From Branchiostoma floridae (lineage: Eukaryota > Chordata > Leptocardii > Amphioxiformes > Branchiostomatidae), in contig NC_049980.1 of assembly GCF_000003815.2 (NCBI RefSeq), positions 9,880,360-9,944,359 on the forward strand: 64,000 nt of DNA, written 5' to 3'. Below the pieces are notes generated by a model. The model searched no databases, was not told where the DNA came from, and saw only the letters and a program-made list of their open reading frames with translations. The translations under genes were made by a program, and so were the position numbers. Below are positions 2,854-13,870 of the stretch, one piece after another (the first letter of the stretch is position 1; each line of letters opens with the position of its first letter).

Positions 2854-5800
2854 TCATTTACCTCGTCCACTTGTCTTCCGAAGGGCGTGTCCTCCAGCTA
2901 CGTCAGCCTCAGCTCCGTCCTGGTTGTGTTTCTGTGACCTTGATTTCCCGCGCTTTCTGGTGCTGCTTTCGTCCTTTCTCTGCCCCACGTTGGCTTCCGT
3001 TCTCTTCATGGCACTCCGGACGTCCCCTTCGCTCTTTCTCGACGTTCGCTTCATGTCCCGGTCACTTCTTGACTTGGTGCCGCGGATGTTAGATCTGCGC
3101 TCCGACCCATCCTCACCGTCACCTCTCTCCTCCTCCCGAGGGCCAACATCGGGGTGCCGCTGACTTCTCATCGGTGTGGACCGCTTCAAGCCGGGTCCAT
3201 TATCGCCTAGAACGCCAACTGCTGGCTCCTCTTGCACCAGGCACTCTGGTGGCGGGGTAAGGCACGGGGAGAGTGTTTCAGAGCGCCACCTGAATGCTGC
3301 AACGTGTGCCAATCGAAAGCCGTCCTTGAACTTCACAGTCTCCGTGCGTCCAACAGGGGAGATTACCCGTCTGTGTTTGAGCGTGATCTGTACTCGTGAA
3401 GCTCGTGAGGACTGGTGCTGGCCGGACGGACGCGCCACCATACCAGCCGCCGTGCTCTTCTTCCTGGGCGGCGGCTTGGGAGTAAACGTCGTAGCATCGA
3501 TCAGGCTATCGATACTTTTTTGTGTCATCGGAGCAGTTTTCCTTTCGTCCTCTTTTGGGTCTAGATCAAGGCACTCCGGCGGTGGGGTAAGACACGGTGA
3601 GGGAGACCGCGCTTTGAAGCGCCAGACTGTTTTGGCTGTCAACTTTCCATCTTCTTCACTTTTTGACACTGATTCCTGTGGAACTCTACTCTCTCTCTTC
3701 CTGATCTGTGCTCGTGAAGACTGGAGCTGACCGGACTGTGGTGCCGCCACACCGGCGGACTTCTTCCCATGCGGCGGTTTGGGGACGGGACCTATACCTC
3801 CAACATCTTTCTTTGTCATCGGGATACGTTTTCTTCCGTTTGAGAGCAGCTTCACGCTGAGTCCGCTACCTTCCAGGTATGAAGGCTCGACGTCCTCTTC
3901 TGGCTCCACTTGATCAAGGCACTCCGGCGGCGGGGTAAGGCCCGGTGAGGGCACCCGTGCTCTGAAACACGAGGTTTTGTTGGCAGTCAGCTCTCCTTCC
4001 TTTTCACGTTTTGACACGGATTCCATCCGTTCCCTCTTCCTGATGTGTGCTCGTGAAGACGGGCGCTGACCTGGCGGTGGTGCCGCCACACCGGCAAGCT
4101 TTTTTCCGTCTGGAGACTGCTTCATGCTGGGTCCGCCACCACCTAGGTAGGTCAAATGGCTGTCTTCAGGCTCCACAAGGCACTCCGGCGGTGGGGTGAG
4201 GCACGGTGATGGAATCCGTGCTCTGAAACGCGAGGTTTTGTTGGCTGGCAACTCTCCTCCCTTTTCACGCTTTGCCCCGGATTCCATCTGTGGAACTCTT
4301 CTCTCCCTCTTCCTGATCTGTGCTCGTGAAGACTGGAGCTGACCGGACGGTGGTGCCACCACACCGACGGACTTCTTCCCAGGCGGCGGTTTGGGGACGG
4401 GACCTGTACCAAGGTTTCCGACATCTTTCTGTGTCATCGGGATCAGTTTTCTTCCGTCTGGCGACAGCTTCATGGTGGGTCCGCCACCTCCCAAATATGT
4501 CAACTCGCCGTCCTCTTCTGGCTCCACTTGAGTAAGGCACTCCGGCGGCGGGGTGAGGCAGGGCGAGGGAATACGTGCTTTGAAGCGCGAGGTTCTGTTG
4601 GCTGGTACCTTTTGAACACTTATTGTGGACCGCTTCAATCTGGGTCCGCCATCTGCCAGCTTCAGTACACCTTCCTCTGGCTCCTCTTGAGTAAGGCACT
4701 CAGGCGGTGGGGTGAGGCACGGGGAGGGTACTCGGGCTCTGAAGCGCGAGGTTTTGTTGGCAGACGTCAGATCTCCATCATTTTCACGTTTTGACACGGA
4801 TTCCATCCGTTCCCTCTTCCTGATCTGTGCTCCTGAAGACGGGCGCTGACCGGACGGTGGTGCCACCACACCGGCGGACTTCTTCCCAGGCGGCGGTTTT
4901 GGCACGAAACCTGCACCTAGGTCTCCAACATCTTTCTGTGTCTTGGTCATCTGTGAGGAAGGATGATGATCTGACGGGGGCGCTACCTCATCAGCTTCCA
5001 CACACTTTCTCTCGGATGGTGGTTTTGGTGCAAAAGTATTTCTTTCCATGAGGTTCTCGACATCTTTTTGCGTCATAGGAATGAATCTTCTGCCGCGACG
5101 CTTACGGGCACTCAAGTCAGCATCCAAATTTCCTGACCGATCGGCATGGCTAGCGTCTCTGTCGCGACGCTTACGGTCACTCAAGTCAGCATCCACGTTT
5201 CCTGACTGATCGCCATGGCTAGCGTCTCTGCCGCGACGCTTACGGACACTCAAGCCAGCATCCACATTTCCTGACCGATCGGCATGGCTAGCGTCTCTGT
5301 CGCGACGCTTACGGTCACTCAAGTCAGCATCCACGTTTCCTGACTGATCGGTATGGCTAGCGTCTCTGCCGCGACGCTTACGGGCACTCAAGTCAGCATC
5401 CACATTTCCTGACCGATCGGCATGGCTAGCGTCTCTACCGCGACGCTTACGGGCACTCAAGTCAGCATCCACATTTCCTGACCGATCGCTCTCGGCATGG
5501 CTAGCGTCTCTGCCGCGACGCTTACGGGCACTCAAGTCAGCATCCACATTTCCTGACCGATCGCTCTCGGCATGGCTAGCGTCTCTGCCGCGACGCTTAC
5601 GGGCACTCAAGTCAGTATCCACATTTCCTGACCGATCGGCATGGCTAGCGTCTCTACCACGACGCTTACGGGTACTCAAGTCAGCATCCACATTTCCTGA
5701 CCGATCGCTATCGGCATGGCTAGCGTCGTCTTGAACCTTTCTAGTCGATGTGTTTACGTTAGCTTCGGCATCTCGGGGTTTCGTTCTGTGATTTATTATT

Positions 5801-8800
5801 AGCGCCTCACATTTGTCACTGTACTTCCTGTGGACAAGTTCAGGAGTTGATCGCAGTGGGGCGGGTGTCTCCTCCATGAAGTCGTAGGTTCTGTGTATGA
5901 ACAGTGGCTCTGGGTCGGTCTCGCCCTGGTCACCCGCCACGGTCTCGCCCTTCCCGGCTCTCCTCAGCTTCTCGTACTTACGCTTGTGAGCCAGCGCAAT
6001 ATATACAACTTGGTTCGGATCCAAAACAAAGTATGTCCAACTGAACACACCGCAACCGACCTGCCTTAGAGTTGGTCGTTTAGCTGGATCTAACTCCAGT
6101 AACTCGCCGGCGAGCCTCTTTGCCTCTGAAATCGAAAAGGTAGCGGGTAGACTAGGATTAATCAGTGAATGGTATGTCCCGTGTCGAAAATATCACATTG
6201 TCTTCTATATGATTGATTTCGGAATGAAATGGAAAGGCACAAGATCAACTCGGGTTCCACAATCAAGGCTTATTATATATGGAGAGTGCCTTTATTGAAG
6301 ACTTTAAGGTCTCATTCATGTATTACTAAAAGTCGACAGTGCCTACCCTAAAAATAAACGGCTGCATGAATATGTGTTTGTCTGTAGCGGTTGGAAATTC
6401 CTCTTTATTTATCCCAACTAGCTTTAAAGCGTCAGATTTATTTAATAACAAACGCTTGTTTGTAAGTGAAGAAATCATCAGATGAAATTTGGCAGACAAA
6501 CGGGTTACTAGTAAGTTGTCCTCAAACGCGTATACATACATACATATCCTCCTGCATGCGCAGTATCGACGGAAAACACCAGGCAAAATATTTTTGAAGT
6601 CGAACTTCCTTTCCACAACCGCTGCTTGCCTACCAAATAGCATGAAGATCCATTCTTAGCTTCTCTAGTTACTAGTATATGCTGTTGACCTACATACAGA
6701 CCCAGAACACAACGGGGCAACTAAAAACATAACCTACTTGGGGAAGGTAACAAACGATGGTAGGGACCCAACTTTCGAAAACAAGGTTTTCTTCACCATA
6801 CATACCTTTTGATATCATGCAGTTAAATTTCGGCCGTCTTTCACTGAGCTCTTTGGCGTAGAGGTCAACCCTGACGAGCGGGAACCTGTGTTGCGGAGCA
6901 ATGAAAGGCTTCTCTCCCGAGACCATCATGTAGAACATCACTCCCCTATACAGGAGCAACAACACAGTATGACCGAATGAAAGCTCATCTATGTTGGTAG
7001 AATCTATAAATAGTTGTAAAGTTTTAACTTTGTTCCAACACACAAGAAAGGAAGAAGAACGGTGGCAGGTTCCGCCTTCCCGCCATCTACGATTCGCTGC
7101 AGACGTCATCCTCCGACTTCCGGAACATCAGTGAAGCAAATCGTACATCTGAAGAAGGTCGACAAGCTTGACCGAAATTTATGGTGAGTTCTTCTTCTTT
7201 TTGTGTTGGAACAAGATTTAAACTTAACAACTATAACACAATGTGACTACTGACTTTTGCACTAATCTCTGACTTTTGTACGTTTTCTATTTAACATATA
7301 TACCCAACATCAATTCTTGGAGATTCTTCTGCACTACAGATTGACAACAGTGTGAGAAAATACCGTTTCTTCTTTCATGCGTACATTTCGTGCTGCTAGA
7401 ATAGTTTAATTAGGAACTGCTGTCCCCATACCTAAAGTTTTGCTACTGGAGGTTGATTGGGTGTCAAATGACAATGAGGAGATGTGGGGTTGTGTGGCGT
7501 AGCTGCATAGTATTTGGCCCTGAACATAGATTGAATTGGTTCTGAATTCCAATCCTGCCTTAAGCTTGTCACCGATCTTGTCCCCCCCCCCCCCCCCCCC
7601 TCGGAAAGGCACTTAACACGACTTTCCTCACTTCACCCATGGGTTTGTCGTGCCTCAAAAGGGCTATGGACTACATTTACGTTGTCAAGCCTTTTATTCT
7701 AGCCACATTTTCCCTGTCTGCACAAAAGTAAAATCATGATAAAAAGATGGAAATATGTAAGAGGCAGTTCTTACATGCCCCAAACGTCGGCCGGTTTCCC
7801 CAGGTACTCCTCCTGACAGAGTATCTCCGGAGGTGTGTACTCCAGTCCGCTTTTCGTCCTGTCCTCCAGGAAATTCGGTTCATTACGGGACACCAGTTCA
7901 CAGCCGTTCTCTAACTTTGTAGCGTAGTAGAATCCTATGTAAGGAGTGTGAGCATTGATCTAACTTTAGACAACAGCTGGTGGAACTTTGATGATGATTC
8001 GAATGGGTCTTCTACTACTAAAAGTATGTAAAATTTAGAAGAACTTTATTGCACGGCAATTGTACATGGTACAATGTATGGCATTAGCTATTGCACAAAG
8101 TGCAAAATAGATGTATAGAATAAAACTTAACATCCTAATTACAATACCAATATGGGCTAATAAAAGTCTTTGATATAGTGTTACAATCGACTTGGGCTAT
8201 CACGGTATACGAGAAGCGTACCCTTGACCTTAAGTCTAAGGTATATACGAGAAGCGTATCTATCGTACTGGCGCGATATGTTACATGCTGCAGCTGTCCA
8301 TTTTTATTTGTGGCTTAGACACAACATAGCCTGGAATCAACAGGCAGGAAGCGTACCTTAGGGAAGCGACCAAAGCACAACACGGCTGGATTCCAGGCTA
8401 GACACAACATGCCATGAATGAAACATTTGCTCCAAAAGTACGTGTTATGTGTTCGTGAAGCTGACATATTGTGTCCACACGAAGCTACTCCAGTTGAGTA
8501 TATACTTGATACAAAACCTACTTATCATGTTTGTTGGCCATGACGTTGTTGCTGGTCTATGAACAGCCGTTCATATCGTTCGTAGGGCAATCACACAACT
8601 CAGAATTGGCTGTCACAAATTGAGTATAGAAACCGCGAGATTAAACAAAAATCCCTATCGACCAGAGGGTTTGTCCATTCTGTCCAGAGCTAATTGAAGA
8701 CGAATTTCACTTAATGGTTGTATGTCCCAAATATTCTGATATACGCTATTCTCTATACAGAAGGCTGTCATTTTATACACAAGGATTTATCTCAATGGAC

Positions 8801-11626
8801 CTGAAGTGCAAATTCAAATACATCATGACATGTGACAATCCCTGCATGGCAGATGTAGGAAAATATATCAAAGAAGGTTTAGACATTACGAATTCCTCAA
8901 ATGATTGTAAAAGCCTTCAATGATTGTGAGAAACTTATCCCATACTAAAACTCCTGTATTAGTTAGACAAGCCTTAAGTTAAGTTGTAGAACTGTAGAAC
9001 TGTAGATATGTAGATGCCATACTTTGTACCCCTTACAATTGATGTGCAATAAAGTTATATCTTAGCTGAACTACGGGTAAGACGTGTTAGCAAGACGTCG
9101 AATATGCTGTAATATGTACTAAGTAAAAGACAAGAATGGCTGTTTGTGCTCACCGGTAATTCTCAGTCTGCCCCGGTTACCCACTAGCACATTGTCGACC
9201 GTAAGGTCCCTGAGGTGCGTAGATGAGAAAGCGAAGAAAAGTAAAAATACGTACTGTTTGTTTACAAGCCTGATCTTTTTAAATGTAACGTTATAATACG
9301 TCAAATATGCGTCTACCGCACACAAGTGGTGACACCTTCAAAGTACTTTCATCATGTCCTGATTCCATATCCATTTACATAGGTCAATACATTAATAACG
9401 CCATGCAAAAAGAAACTGTACCATTCCTAGATCCCATTTGACAAACTATTGTTGACAGACTATTTGTTTATAAGGTTGTGATGAAAACCGTTTCGGGACT
9501 AACAACAGAGGAAAGCTGTAAACTAACAACGCTATGACAGAATGGAAACGCATACTAACCTGTGCACGATGCCACACTTGTGAACGTACTTCATTCCGTC
9601 CACCAACTGATGAGTGAAGTGCCGCACGACTTTCTCGGCTAGACCCACGCCTCTACCCGCCCGGTACTGCTGGATGAACTCCCCCAGCCTCCCGTTCATT
9701 CCACAATACTCCATCACCAGATAGGTGCGGTCGATTGTGTTAAAGAAATCGTATACGCTCATCTATGATAGGAAAGGAAAGGAATTACATACTAGTACTA
9801 CTAGTACTGGACGTAGCCTCTGAAAAAATCGCACGGACAAAAACCACATACGGCGGGTTGTGCCCTTAGCTTTACACTTTCTGGAACGTGAAAGGAGAAG
9901 AATAGAGTAGAGTTCCAGGTAGGAACGGCTGGTGTCATTTTAGGCCGCTCTTCGATCAGGTTCACGCCACAGCCATTTCCAGTTCGTGTTTTTTTTCAAC
10001 GCTCGGTAATCAAAGTGGACCAAATGTTACCATATGAGATTGCCCAGCCTCTGCTTGAAACGGTTAACACTGGGAGAAACAACCACTGCCTCCGGTAGGC
10101 TATTCCACTAAGGAATTACTCCGACGCCGAAGAAATGGGCTACTAGTATTCTGTTGTCCTTGGCGTTCTCTTAAAACGCAGGCTATGACCTCTGGTTCTT
10201 GTGTCCATATTCATATCAAGTCCCCCTGAGACGTCTATACAGAGATAGGGTCACAAACGAGGAAGTGTATCGTAGGAGCGAGGCAAAACCTCTTAGTGCC
10301 ACCATCACAGAAAAAAAACATCAAGTACACAGGACATGTGAATGCCTGTGGATAGACATGCTAAAACAGTCATCCACATAAGGTTTGCAATTTGGTTGGC
10401 TTTCTTTGTCATAGCCGATAACGTTACATGGCTACTTAAGTTCAGATCCTGGTCCCTACAATAACTCTCAGGTCTTTCTCCTGCTATGTAAAGTCTAGAG
10501 TAGAGGGGTACTGATTTCATTATCTATCATTGTATAGGTGAACTCAGGATGTCATTACCCAGTCTGATGACAGTAAATTCCATTGGATGGAAACAAAACT
10601 GCCAGTCTGCTGCCCAATTTTGTAACTGCTGAAGGTTTTCTGAAAGCCAGTGTAGCCATCCACCCGTACTACTGGACAATATACATGTATCTTATTATCA
10701 TCCACAAAAGGCTTTTAGCTCACTCTCCACGATTTCTGGCAGATCATTTAAAAGTAGTGTGAAAAGAACAGGACCATTGAATACTCCCACTGTTTATGTT
10801 TGCTCAAATTTCTCCGAGCCGCCCGGCCATCGGCGCTGGACATGGTAAAAACATTTCACTGATAGAGATTTCAGTGTCAACCATAGCTTAGTTTCAGGCA
10901 AATGTACTCCATGAATGCAGAAAAGATTTCCCCGGACCTCCATTGCGACGGCTTGCGCTTTTGGCACTGACGACGACATGGCGAAAATATGTTGGGGGCG
11001 TGGGTCGTCGCCCACTAAAACTTCTTTCTCTAATGGTATGTCCGAACCCTTTGCTTCCTCTCATGCAGGAAGCGAGTGATACCCCTGTCACATTATCCAC
11101 GATCTTCGGGCGTTTTAATAGAAGGTCGGCCATATTTAAGGCGGGTTTCGCGTATTTTTCACCTAAAAACCGTCCCTGTCACATATAAGCCATGCTTTCT
11201 ACCTTGTACATTTGTTGTGCAATAATGTTATTATTATAAGCGAGGCTCGGGCGATTGCCGCAGACTCATCGTCCGATCGATTTTCGCGCAATGTGACAGG
11301 GGTATAAAAGAGCACAGAGTCGTGATGATTCTTTCTGTCCCTTTTCTTTTGAAACAGATGCATGTCGTATCGAAACAAGAATATTCTGACACATGAACGT
11401 TGACTATTGACTGAACATTGACATCGTTACGATGACCCATTTTCACAATATGTGCTGCAATACATCCTCAGTGTGTCCTACGCCTACGGATAGTTAACCT
11501 GGGTACCATCCGGAAAGTAGTTTCGCTCTGGCGTTCCAGAACACGATTAAGCATCATTCGCTTTGACAGACACAGTGTTGGCGCAATAACGTTATCTACT
11601 CATATTCACTCCACCACTATACATAC

Positions 11627-11658
<32 letters not shown>

Positions 11659-12298
11659 TATATATATGCGTGCGTGTCCGATCCCTTATCCCACTGACAA
11701 AAGGTCAATTTTACAGACAACTAAAAAGCTATTGAGCATCTCAACCGTGAGACTCAATACATTATCTTCGTAGCCCGATAAAGTACCATCACTTGACAGT
11801 CGGAATAAGCTCATTTCTAAGGAAAAACACAAGGCTACTGACCACATTACAGTGGTTGAGCTCCCGCAGCATGTCCGCCTCCCTCTTGAAGAGTTCGTAA
11901 TTTGGCTTTCCCTTGTTGTAGATTTTCACTGCAACCTGTCAGAAATTACACATACTTCTAAGCTTGTAGGCTATGTATCGCGGCAGAAGTTGATGCCTTC
12001 TAGATACTTCTTTCAGTAGTTTTACATGAGTCATCATACAAGTGTTGAAACGTGAACGATGAACAGACAAAATCATTAAATCTTTTCTCAACAAGAGTGA
12101 AACGGTCTGACAAGAAAGGTGTAACTTATTACCTGCATGTGTTTGGGAGTTCCGTAAAAGCCTAGTACCAATAGCCTCATTTTGAACGACAATCTCAAGG
12201 AGTCCTCGGCGGTAGCCAGCTTGATGTCACCAAACTTCCCGGTTGCGATTGTCTTCACCAGGAAGTACCCACGGTCTCGACATTCTTTATCCTCCATT
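2854..12298 (-). CDS. Protein kinase-like protein lacking DFG, with a long repeat-rich C-terminal tail
   Basis: Spliced minus-strand exons: 12298-12133, 11935-11843, 9762-9560, 9209-9154, 7934-7775, 6945-6806 and 6125-2854. All have AG/GT borders and matching phases. From the ATG at 12297 this gives 1,362 residues. The kinase domain occupies about residues 10-290: glycine loop ATGKFG (first Gly is Ala), VAVK lysine 59, a Glu in the helix-C segment KREADML, catalytic loop HRDLTVDN (153-160, Lys replaced by Thr), PPE at 207-209, DVWGMGV, and KRPT near the end. The position of DFG reads GFY (173-175) across the exon 4/5 junction, so the metal-binding Asp is missing. About 20 extra residues sit between strands 2 and 3. 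The tail of about 1,070 residues holds two repeat families and ends strongly basic. It resembles CAMK/TSSK/PLK-like Ser/Thr kinases; I cannot name an orthologue. It may be catalytically impaired, or a scaffold; that is inference. Confidence 0.82.
3180..4760 (-). repeat. Coding repeat of about 100 residues in the kinase tail
   Basis: Six copies of the block PSPCLTPPPECL (one is PSPGL, one begins LSPCL) recur in the last kinase exon. Each follows F[RK]xR and is followed by an acidic run. Between them recur PMTQKDV, PKPPPGKKS, SGQxxSSRAQIRKRE and ANKTSRF blocks. The DNA copies diverge but clearly share one origin. Each core carries an S-P and a T-P site, which would suit proline-directed kinases; that is inference from motif form only. 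Confidence 0.85.
5090..5730 (-). repeat. Coding minisatellite, 63/69-bp units (21/23 residues) in the kinase tail
   Basis: About ten head-to-tail units encode variants of DADLSARKRRGRDASHADRS followed by GNV. Most units are 63 bp; some carry a 6-bp insertion that adds Glu-Ser. The DNA of neighbouring units is nearly identical, so the array is young or homogenised. All length changes are multiples of three, so the frame is kept. Copy number probably varies between individuals. Confidence 0.9.
8316..8410. mobile_element. Small foldback element (family copy 1) with 12-bp target duplication
   Basis: The direct repeat TAGACACAACAT lies at 8316-8327 and 8399-8410. Between them is a 71-bp element that starts AGCCTGGAATC and ends GATTCCAGGC, an inverted repeat. 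The inside has no coding capacity. Confidence 0.75.
8540..9060 (+). mobile_element. 3' end of a non-LTR retrotransposon, degenerate
   Basis: In one frame the DNA encodes VCPFCPELIEDEFHLMVVCP and then KYSDIRYSLYRR. The CxxC...H...C pattern is the zinc-binding stretch common at the C-terminus of LINE reverse transcriptase proteins. Just upstream, LRIGCHKLSIETARLNK continues the same protein but in another frame, so at least one frameshift is present. The copy ends with TGTGCAATAAAGTTATAT, the type of 3' tail seen at several other places in this window. It is inactive. Confidence 0.75.
9985..10215 (-). mobile_element. LINE (CR1/L2-like) C-terminal fragment, degenerate
   Basis: Read on the minus strand with two frame changes, the segment gives TRGHSLRFKRTPRTTEY, then FFGVGVIP-like sequence, then SVNRFKQRLGNLIW-like sequence. 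This order (TRGH ... FF ... WN-LP ... VN-FK-RLD) is the usual end of CR1/L2 reverse transcriptase proteins. The fragment lies in an intron of the kinase gene. Confidence 0.6.
11081..11303. mobile_element. Terminal-inverted-repeat element, about 223 bp
   Basis: The left end ACCCCTGTCACATT and the right end AATGTGACAGGGGT are perfect inverted repeats, and weaker pairing continues inward (GATCTTCGGGCG against the CGTCCGATCGA side). TA lies next to both ends. A LINE-like 3' tail (TGTTGTGCAATAATG) sits inside, near 11213. There is no coding capacity. It looks like a MITE. Confidence 0.65.
11629..11677. repeat. TA/TG microsatellite
   Basis: A run of TA dinucleotides of about 24 bp continues into GCGCG(TA)n and TGCGTGCGTG. 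It is a simple-sequence repeat in a kinase intron. Confidence 0.85.
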
Positions 12299-12569
12299 CT
12301 ACAACATGGCGACACACAGCACCGGTATAGCGACATGTTCTTCATTTGTCCTTTCTGTTGCAGGTATGTGGCCGTGGAATACTTAGAAAGTCTGTGTTAA
12401 CTCCAAGAATTGAATAAAGTAAATAGCTTACATGGATAACGTTGGATGTGATACACATCAAAGTTAGACACAGGGTCGTAAGAACTTAAGACAGCAATAA
12501 TCTATCTGTTGCTGCTTACGTTAACTTGTGTGCTTATGGTAAAAATCATAAAAACATTGACGGACATAC

Positions 12570-12992: not shown

Positions 12993-13870
12993 TAAGGTAT
13001 TCAGTACCAGGGACAGGCCTGTTTACCTTGTGTGGACGGTGTTCAACACCAGGTACAGGTGTGTTAGCCATTGTGGTTGGTGTTCAGCACCAAGGATTGG
13101 TATGTTAACCAGTGTGGTTGGTGTTCAGCACCAAGGATTGGTATGTTAACCAGTGTGGTTGGTGTTCAGCACCAAGGATTGGTCTGTTAGCCATTTTTAG
13201 TTGGTGTTCAGCACCAGGGTCTGTTTACCTTGTGTGGACGTTGTTCAGCAACAGGTACAGGTGTGTTAGAGTGTGTATATAAATTTTAGTTTTCAGCACC
13301 AGGGACAGGTCTGTTAGTCAGTGTGTGGTTGGAGTTCAGTACCAGGGACAGGTATGATCCAATTGTGGATGGTGTTCAACACAAGGGATTAGTCTGTTAA
13401 AGCAATTTGCAGTTGGTATTCAGCATCAGGGACAGGTGTGTTAGCCATTGTGGTTGGTCTTCAGCACCAAGGATTGGTATGTTAACCAGTGTGGTTGGTG
13501 TTCAGCACCAGGGATTGGTCTGTTAACCTTTATGCAGTTGGTGTAGAGCACCAGGGACAGGTCTGTTAGCCATTTTTAGTTGGTGTTCAGCACCAATGAT
13601 TGGTATGTTAACCAGTGTGGTTGGTGTTCAGCACCAGGGATTGATATTTAGCCATTTTGTGGTTGGTGTAAAGCACCAGGGACGGGGTTGTTAGCCATTT
13701 TTAGTTGGTGTTTAGCACCAGGGACAGATCTGTTAGACATTGTGGTCGGTGTTTAGCACCAGGGATTGATTTGTTAGCCTGTATGTGGTTAGTGTTCAGC
13801 ACCGGGGACCGGTCTCATAGCCAGTGTGGTTGGTGTTCAGCACCAGGGACAGGTCTGTTAGCCTGCATGT
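12993..13870. repeat. Minisatellite, about 42-bp unit, roughly 20 copies
   Basis: The unit reads roughly TTCAGCACCAGGGACAGG then TCTGTTAGCCAGTGTGGTTGG and repeats head to tail for nearly 0.9 kb. Variants include AAGGATTGG for AGGGACAGG and TTTTTAGTTGG for GTGTGGTTGG. Unit length is 40-46 bp. A run of about 16 C follows at 13913. The array lies between the 5' end of the kinase gene and the 3' end of the Shb-like gene. Confidence 0.9.

Follow-up and report, generated by a model that had tools for sequence, protein, structure and literature searches.

A clade of probable CASK-like pseudokinases with Gly in place of the DFG Asp in the genome of Branchiostoma floridae

We analysed a 64,000-base stretch of the Branchiostoma floridae genome (bases 9880360-9944359 of contig C2; hereafter the window) that carries a kinase gene lacking the Asp of the DFG motif. 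The gene lies on the minus strand at window positions 12345..2854, comprises seven exons and encodes 1378 residues followed by one terminal stop; all six introns are of the GT-AG type, and the exon phases are compatible. The product matches the Pkinase model (PF00069) at 152.6 bits (expectation value (E) 1.7e-44; curated cut-off 31.7) and, judged from its sequence, is a member of the protein kinase superfamily with a Pkinase fold. The original prediction, which was made from the letters of the window alone, had placed a kinase at 7775..9209; this interval corresponds to exons 4 and 5 alone of the seven. On the minus strand, these two exons are flanked by AG and GT and are entered in phases 2 and 1, and their junction (9154/7934) translates as RITGFYYATKL. 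The codon split by the intron, G/GA (slash, intron position), specifies Gly and is followed by TTC TAC for Phe and Tyr. The predicted GFY in the DFG column is thus borne out by the spliced gene model, the phases and the AG and GT sites. Its lost DFG Asp makes the gene a pseudokinase by sequence, a class described as having lost the VAIK Lys, the HRD Asp or the DFG Asp (PMC4718504).

Other catalytic positions are retained. The VAVK Lys, helix-C Glu, HRD Asp, catalytic-loop Asn and DVW Asp had all been predicted to remain, and these columns proved invariant among five aligned relatives; the invariant residues are K53, E68, H147, R148, D149, N154, E203 (the APE Glu), D216 (DVW) and R283 (the late Arg). 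Beyond the changes recognized earlier, the Gly-rich loop begins with Ala where its first Gly would stand (ATGKFG), and APE is replaced by PPE. In GFY, Tyr replaces the Gly of DFG too. The reported Thr at the position of the catalytic-loop Lys is present, but its reading as a further defect was rejected: the active enzyme PLK4 also has Thr there (HRDLTLSN in the alignment). Together, ATGKFG, which fits (G/S/A)xGxx(G/S/A), the intact VAVK and HRD and the lost DFG Asp make up a CASK-like motif pattern. In CASK and Titin, both devoid of the DFG Asp, preserved activity has been linked to permitted forms of the Gly-rich loop and of the beta3 and HRD motifs (PMC2639636).

The genome to which the window belongs (513,431,437 bases, 431 contigs) was searched with the kinase domain, yielding at least 84 matches, and with a related GFG-bearing copy, yielding at least 132; the best candidates were scored, and the counts are lower bounds. 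In the kinase-domain search, the strongest matches outside the window fall at three further places on C2; in the search with the GFG copy, the four C2 loci rank top. A tandem copy at C2:9836111-9842488, ~41 kb from the window gene, reads G/GG TTC AAT, that is, GFN. The copy at C2:19.20 Mb (L010), referred to here as the GFG copy, reads G/GT TTC GGC. In the copy at C2:15.01 Mb (L011), the DFG region begins g/GTTTTCGG. Relative to its twin L010, L011 bears five single-base insertions in exon 5; because they sit in exon 5 while the exon 7 frame is open for 1237 codons, they suggest an assembly fault, and the copy was left unmended and kept out of the tree and of the substitution-rate analysis. 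Over their three longest aligned pieces, L010 and L011 share 93-97% identity, in opposite orientation. As they lie on one contig, either the locus was duplicated recently or two haplotypes were left uncollapsed.

After the C2 loci, single-exon matches on C6 and C1 come next by score, at 28-36% identity. Matches on C7 (49%) and C11 (45%) score lower, and because their identity in one exon is higher, we take these two genes as the likely nearest relatives. Both read DFG, as G/AC TTC GGA in the C7 gene (within C7:15067000-15081900) and G/AT TTT GGA in the C11 gene. A phase-1 intron splits the same DFG-position codon in all six genes (the window gene, L009, L010, L011, L012 and L013), with acceptor junctions of AG/A in the Asp-bearing genes and AG/G in the Gly-bearing ones. 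In two of the copies, exons 4 and 5 are as long as in the window gene (56 and 160 bases), and the tandem pair retains open frames of 1378 residues (window gene) and 1173 residues (tandem copy). The three aligned C2 copies share the Ala that opens the Gly-rich loop in place of Gly, and PPE for APE, with Thr or Arg at the position of the catalytic-loop Lys. In Branchiostoma's own genome, three more copies are without Asp in the DFG column, and the relatives on C7 and C11 have DFG. This sharing of the loss, together with the DFG kept by relatives, upholds the claim of a kinase fold without DFG Asp as opposed to an allele or an assembly error.

As a yardstick, we read the DFG column in the 40 best-scoring matches outside the clade (search with the GFG copy) whose range covers all three positions. 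DFG was found in 38 of these, GFG in one, and one was unreadable. The set was not drawn at random from the kinome, and its members are not independent: at least eleven are near-alike and of tyrosine-kinase type, and two have the same catalytic segment. Because 38 of the 40 read DFG, chance or error is an unlikely source of the Gly in the C2 genes. The one GFG match, L033 (C13:18800653-18801567), has HLN in place of HRD and His in place of the catalytic Asn. In the tree described below, its partners are L025 and L026 (92/80), and it falls away from the C2 clade, on a long branch that makes its placement unsure, and looks like a separate loss of the DFG Asp in an independent pseudokinase.

The relationships were resolved in a tree of 24 rows, formed by five genes (window gene, tandem copy, GFG copy, C7 and C11) and 19 other kinase-like matches of the genome. 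The window gene and tandem copy group together (100/99), joined successively by the GFG copy (100/99), the C7 gene (100/98) and the C11 gene (83/89). The simplest account of this order would be a single change from Asp to Gly in the stem lineage of the C2 genes. The third letter of the motif is changed in the tandem pair (GFN, GFY) relative to the GFG copy. To judge by these alignments, the C2 genes look like a small pseudokinase clade, seen in one genome. Gly for the DFG Asp is already known from pseudokinases of animals and plants (PMC2639636, PMC9403797); what this analysis adds is the clade with its tail, and a series of DFG, GFG, GFN and GFY that can be followed in one genome. No description of the clade was found among the listed titles and abstract openings of openly licensed papers on amphioxus or Branchiostoma kinases.

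Selective constraint was estimated from the VAVK motif onward as the ratio of non-synonymous to synonymous substitution rates (dN/dS; NG86, bootstrap 95% intervals) for the window gene, tandem copy and GFG copy. The GFG copy gave 0.45 (0.31-0.63) against the window gene and 0.44 (0.31-0.62) against the tandem copy; the window gene and tandem copy gave 0.61 (0.40-0.95), with 1.6% of resamplings at or above 1. Two other estimators returned 0.24 and 0.32 for window gene and GFG copy, 0.28 and 0.32 for tandem copy and GFG copy, and 0.54 and 0.68 for the tandem pair. With the GFG copy as outgroup, 55 changes were placed on the window branch (38 non-synonymous, 17 synonymous) and 27 on the tandem branch (18 and 9), leaving 17 unplaced. 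By these estimates, constraint is clear across the clade and moderate in its youngest pair.

Exon 7 encodes the end of the kinase domain and a tail of ~1045 residues, of which 20% are Lys or Arg and 15% Ser or Thr. Pfam at E 0.01 identified no family in the 1089 residues of this exon, and hence none of the MAGUK domains that lie C-terminal to the kinase domain in CASK. A 51-codon stretch early in the tail gave a dN/dS of 0.15, on three changes only. Following a coding tandem array (Table 1), the window gene has six PPPEC motifs, five of them as PSPxLTPPPECL; counted in this way, there are four in the tandem copy and eight in the C2:15.01 Mb copy. The GFG copy is interrupted by an assembly gap past the start of exon 7, and its tail matches resume beyond the gap. 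When a 159-residue segment of the tail was searched against the genome, it returned 19 matches (E 0.001), all at the four C2 clade loci. Within reach of this one search, the tail is found in this genome together with the kinase domain that lacks the Asp.

Table 1. Exons of the kinase gene and the repeat array within its coding region (window positions).
Feature	Position	Strand	Content	Basis
Exon 1	12133..12345	-	Start codon; Gly-rich loop ATGKFG (Ala for first Gly); insert between beta2 and beta3	Gene model, GT donor, phase 0; paralogue alignment
Exon 2	11843..11935	-	VAVK lysine (codon 11926..11924); helix-C Glu (KREADM)	Gene model and alignment
Exon 3	9560..9762	-	Hinge through His and part of the HRD Arg codon	Gene model
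Exon 4	9154..9209	-	Remainder of HRD; catalytic loop DLTVDN; beta8; last base is base 1 of the GFY Gly codon	Gene model
Exon 5	7775..7934	-	Remainder of GFY (DFG position); activation segment; YTPPEI (APE position); DVWGM	Gene model
Exon 6	6806..6945	-	C-lobe	Gene model
Exon 7	2854..6125	-	Kinase domain end (KRPT Arg); tail of ~1045 residues, basic, S/T-P-rich	Open frame to stop; composition
Coding tandem array	5089..5707	-	69-base unit, 8.8 copies	

Two further features flank the gene. Directly upstream of exon 1, a minisatellite at window positions 12996-13863 contains ~21 copies of a 41-base unit, each with short inverted arms (GGTG...CACC). Past the 3' end of the gene, an open frame on the plus strand (155-1039) matches a polycystin-type channel (PKD_channel, E 1.3e-29).

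Comparison with solved structures gave different rankings for the window protein and its DFG-bearing relatives. For the window protein, 4c0t ('likely protein kinase'), PLK4 and ULK1 rank before SNF-related kinase, MARK and MELK. The top structures are SIK3, a CIPK and MARK for the C7 relative, and AMPK, SIK3 and MARK for the C11 relative. On the strength of the rankings of these two relatives, and of the kinase groups to which we take the ranked structures to belong, the clade is probably part of the CAMK group. Assignment to the TSSK family was rejected, as TSSK6 comes only further down the rankings for both DFG-bearing relatives, and we claim no family below the group. With the C7 relative as query, NCBIfam returned 12 prokaryote-oriented kinase models, every one under its cut-off.

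CASK lacks the catalytic-loop Asn in addition to the DFG Asp, whereas the window gene keeps this Asn. In other respects, the CaM-kinase domain of CASK, an animal MAGUK protein, offers a close parallel: its DFG Asp is replaced by Gly to give GFG, as in the C2:19.20 Mb copy, and its Gly-rich loop, beta3 motif and HRD are intact (PMC2639636). Unlike CASK, the window gene has a long tail without Pfam domains, and Tyr for the Gly of DFG. CASK is reported to bind adenosine triphosphate (ATP) weakly, with an activity that cations inhibit (PMC2639636, PMC4718504). The plant ILK pseudokinases (Arabidopsis ILK1-3) likewise carry GFG for DFG, derived from a canonical relative and kept since, but belong to a Raf-like MAP3K family of plants and are non-RD kinases (HCD); ILK1 is described as preferring Mn2+ (PMC9403797). 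VRK3 resembles the C2 genes in its GFG and in a Thr at the position of the catalytic-loop Lys, and differs from them in having lost its own Gly-rich loop and HRD; it is also described as not binding ATP (PMC2639636). Within the genome, the C7 sister gene shares 37% identity over the kinase region, the intron in the Asp codon and a long basic tail; it differs in its intact DFG, HRDIK, GTGSFG and APE and in a tail without the PPPEC motif.

We consider it reasonably probable, at roughly two chances in three, that the window gene belongs to a clade of CASK-like pseudokinases, probably of the CAMK group, whose products would serve as nucleotide-binding scaffolds. The domain would fold in an active-like state and, by analogy with CASK, may bind adenine nucleotide weakly without the usual metal pair. 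The main role of the window protein would then be that of a scaffold, or of an allosteric partner to an active kinase, with the tail providing a multivalent docking part; the C7 sister kinase, with its DFG and long basic tail, would be the most natural partner or competitor. Several points weigh against this proposal. The scaffold role, the partner and the function of the tail are things that we infer only. The dN/dS of 0.61 between the window gene and tandem copy is just moderately below 1, the ratio for the final 231 codons of the tail is 0.59 and its interval (0.34-1.15) spans 1, and the window branch, with about twice the changes of the tandem branch, is possibly under relaxed constraint. 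In addition, the support that Titin lends to the motif rule is disputed, as titin kinase has been called an inactive pseudokinase scaffold (PMC4042850).

That a wrong exon, an assembly error or a private allele masks a normal DFG appears very improbable. The motif does span an intron, and the gene model is drawn from genomic sequence. However, when the 1219 bases of intron 4/5 were scanned for an alternative DFG exon, none emerged: D[F/Y/L/W]G is absent from all three sense frames, and no acceptor is so placed as to complete a split Asp codon ahead of a DFG-like sequence. Moreover, the GGA codon of the window gene is two substitutions away from either Asp codon, as is the codon of the tandem copy, and adenosine-to-inosine editing of the RNA cannot restore Asp, since GGA stays Gly after it. 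The paralogues, which share the loss, already contradict such an artefact. A less remote, if still doubtful, account is that a recently redundant gene is drifting towards a pseudogene, its motif loss being functionless. Consistent with drift, the upper bound of dN/dS within the tandem pair reaches 0.95, and one of the four copies is interrupted by insertions that its near-identical twin does not have. Against it, both tandem frames remain open over more than a thousand residues, the ratios to the GFG copy are lower, and the other main catalytic residues survive in each of the three aligned copies despite the missing Asp; in the fourth copy, the insertions lie in exon 5 while the exon 7 frame is open, a pattern that suggests an assembly fault, unproven as this is.

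The gene could also encode an unconventional active kinase that transfers phosphate without the DFG Asp, either metal-free as in CASK or with Mn2+ as in plant ILK1. This we regard as unlikely, though somewhat less so than drift. In its favour, the VAVK Lys, HRD Asp and catalytic Asn remain, the Gly-rich loop has a permitted form, and the motif of the GFG copy is spelled as in CASK and plant ILK1, for both of which activity has been reported (PMC2639636, PMC4718504, PMC9403797). By contrast, VRK3 is reported to be inactive with GFG, although its Gly-rich loop and HRD are also lost (PMC2639636). The window gene itself has departed further, with Tyr for the DFG Gly, PPE for APE and a segment before APE unlike that of its DFG relatives; because of these three changes, a scaffold or allosteric role is likelier for it than catalysis. 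Residual activity, if any, would be better sought in the GFG copy than in the window gene.

A more speculative extension, to which we assign a small likelihood, slightly below that of drift, is that the clade is a further animal origin of DFG-less catalysis, graded through GFG, GFN and GFY, in which ATP would be bound and phosphate transferred without the usual metal pair. The loss would have been eased by the intron that splits the Asp codon. Splice acceptors have the consensus AG/G, and an A-to-G change at the base that opens the exon would improve the acceptor and turn Asp into Gly in one step; the junctions read here are compatible with this idea. DFG relatives, a GFG copy and GFN and GFY copies in one genome offer a natural series for reading the order of losses and comparing its steps in close relatives. 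As the example of CASK showed, unusual chemistry is worth seeking in pseudokinases that keep their main catalytic residues except the DFG Asp.

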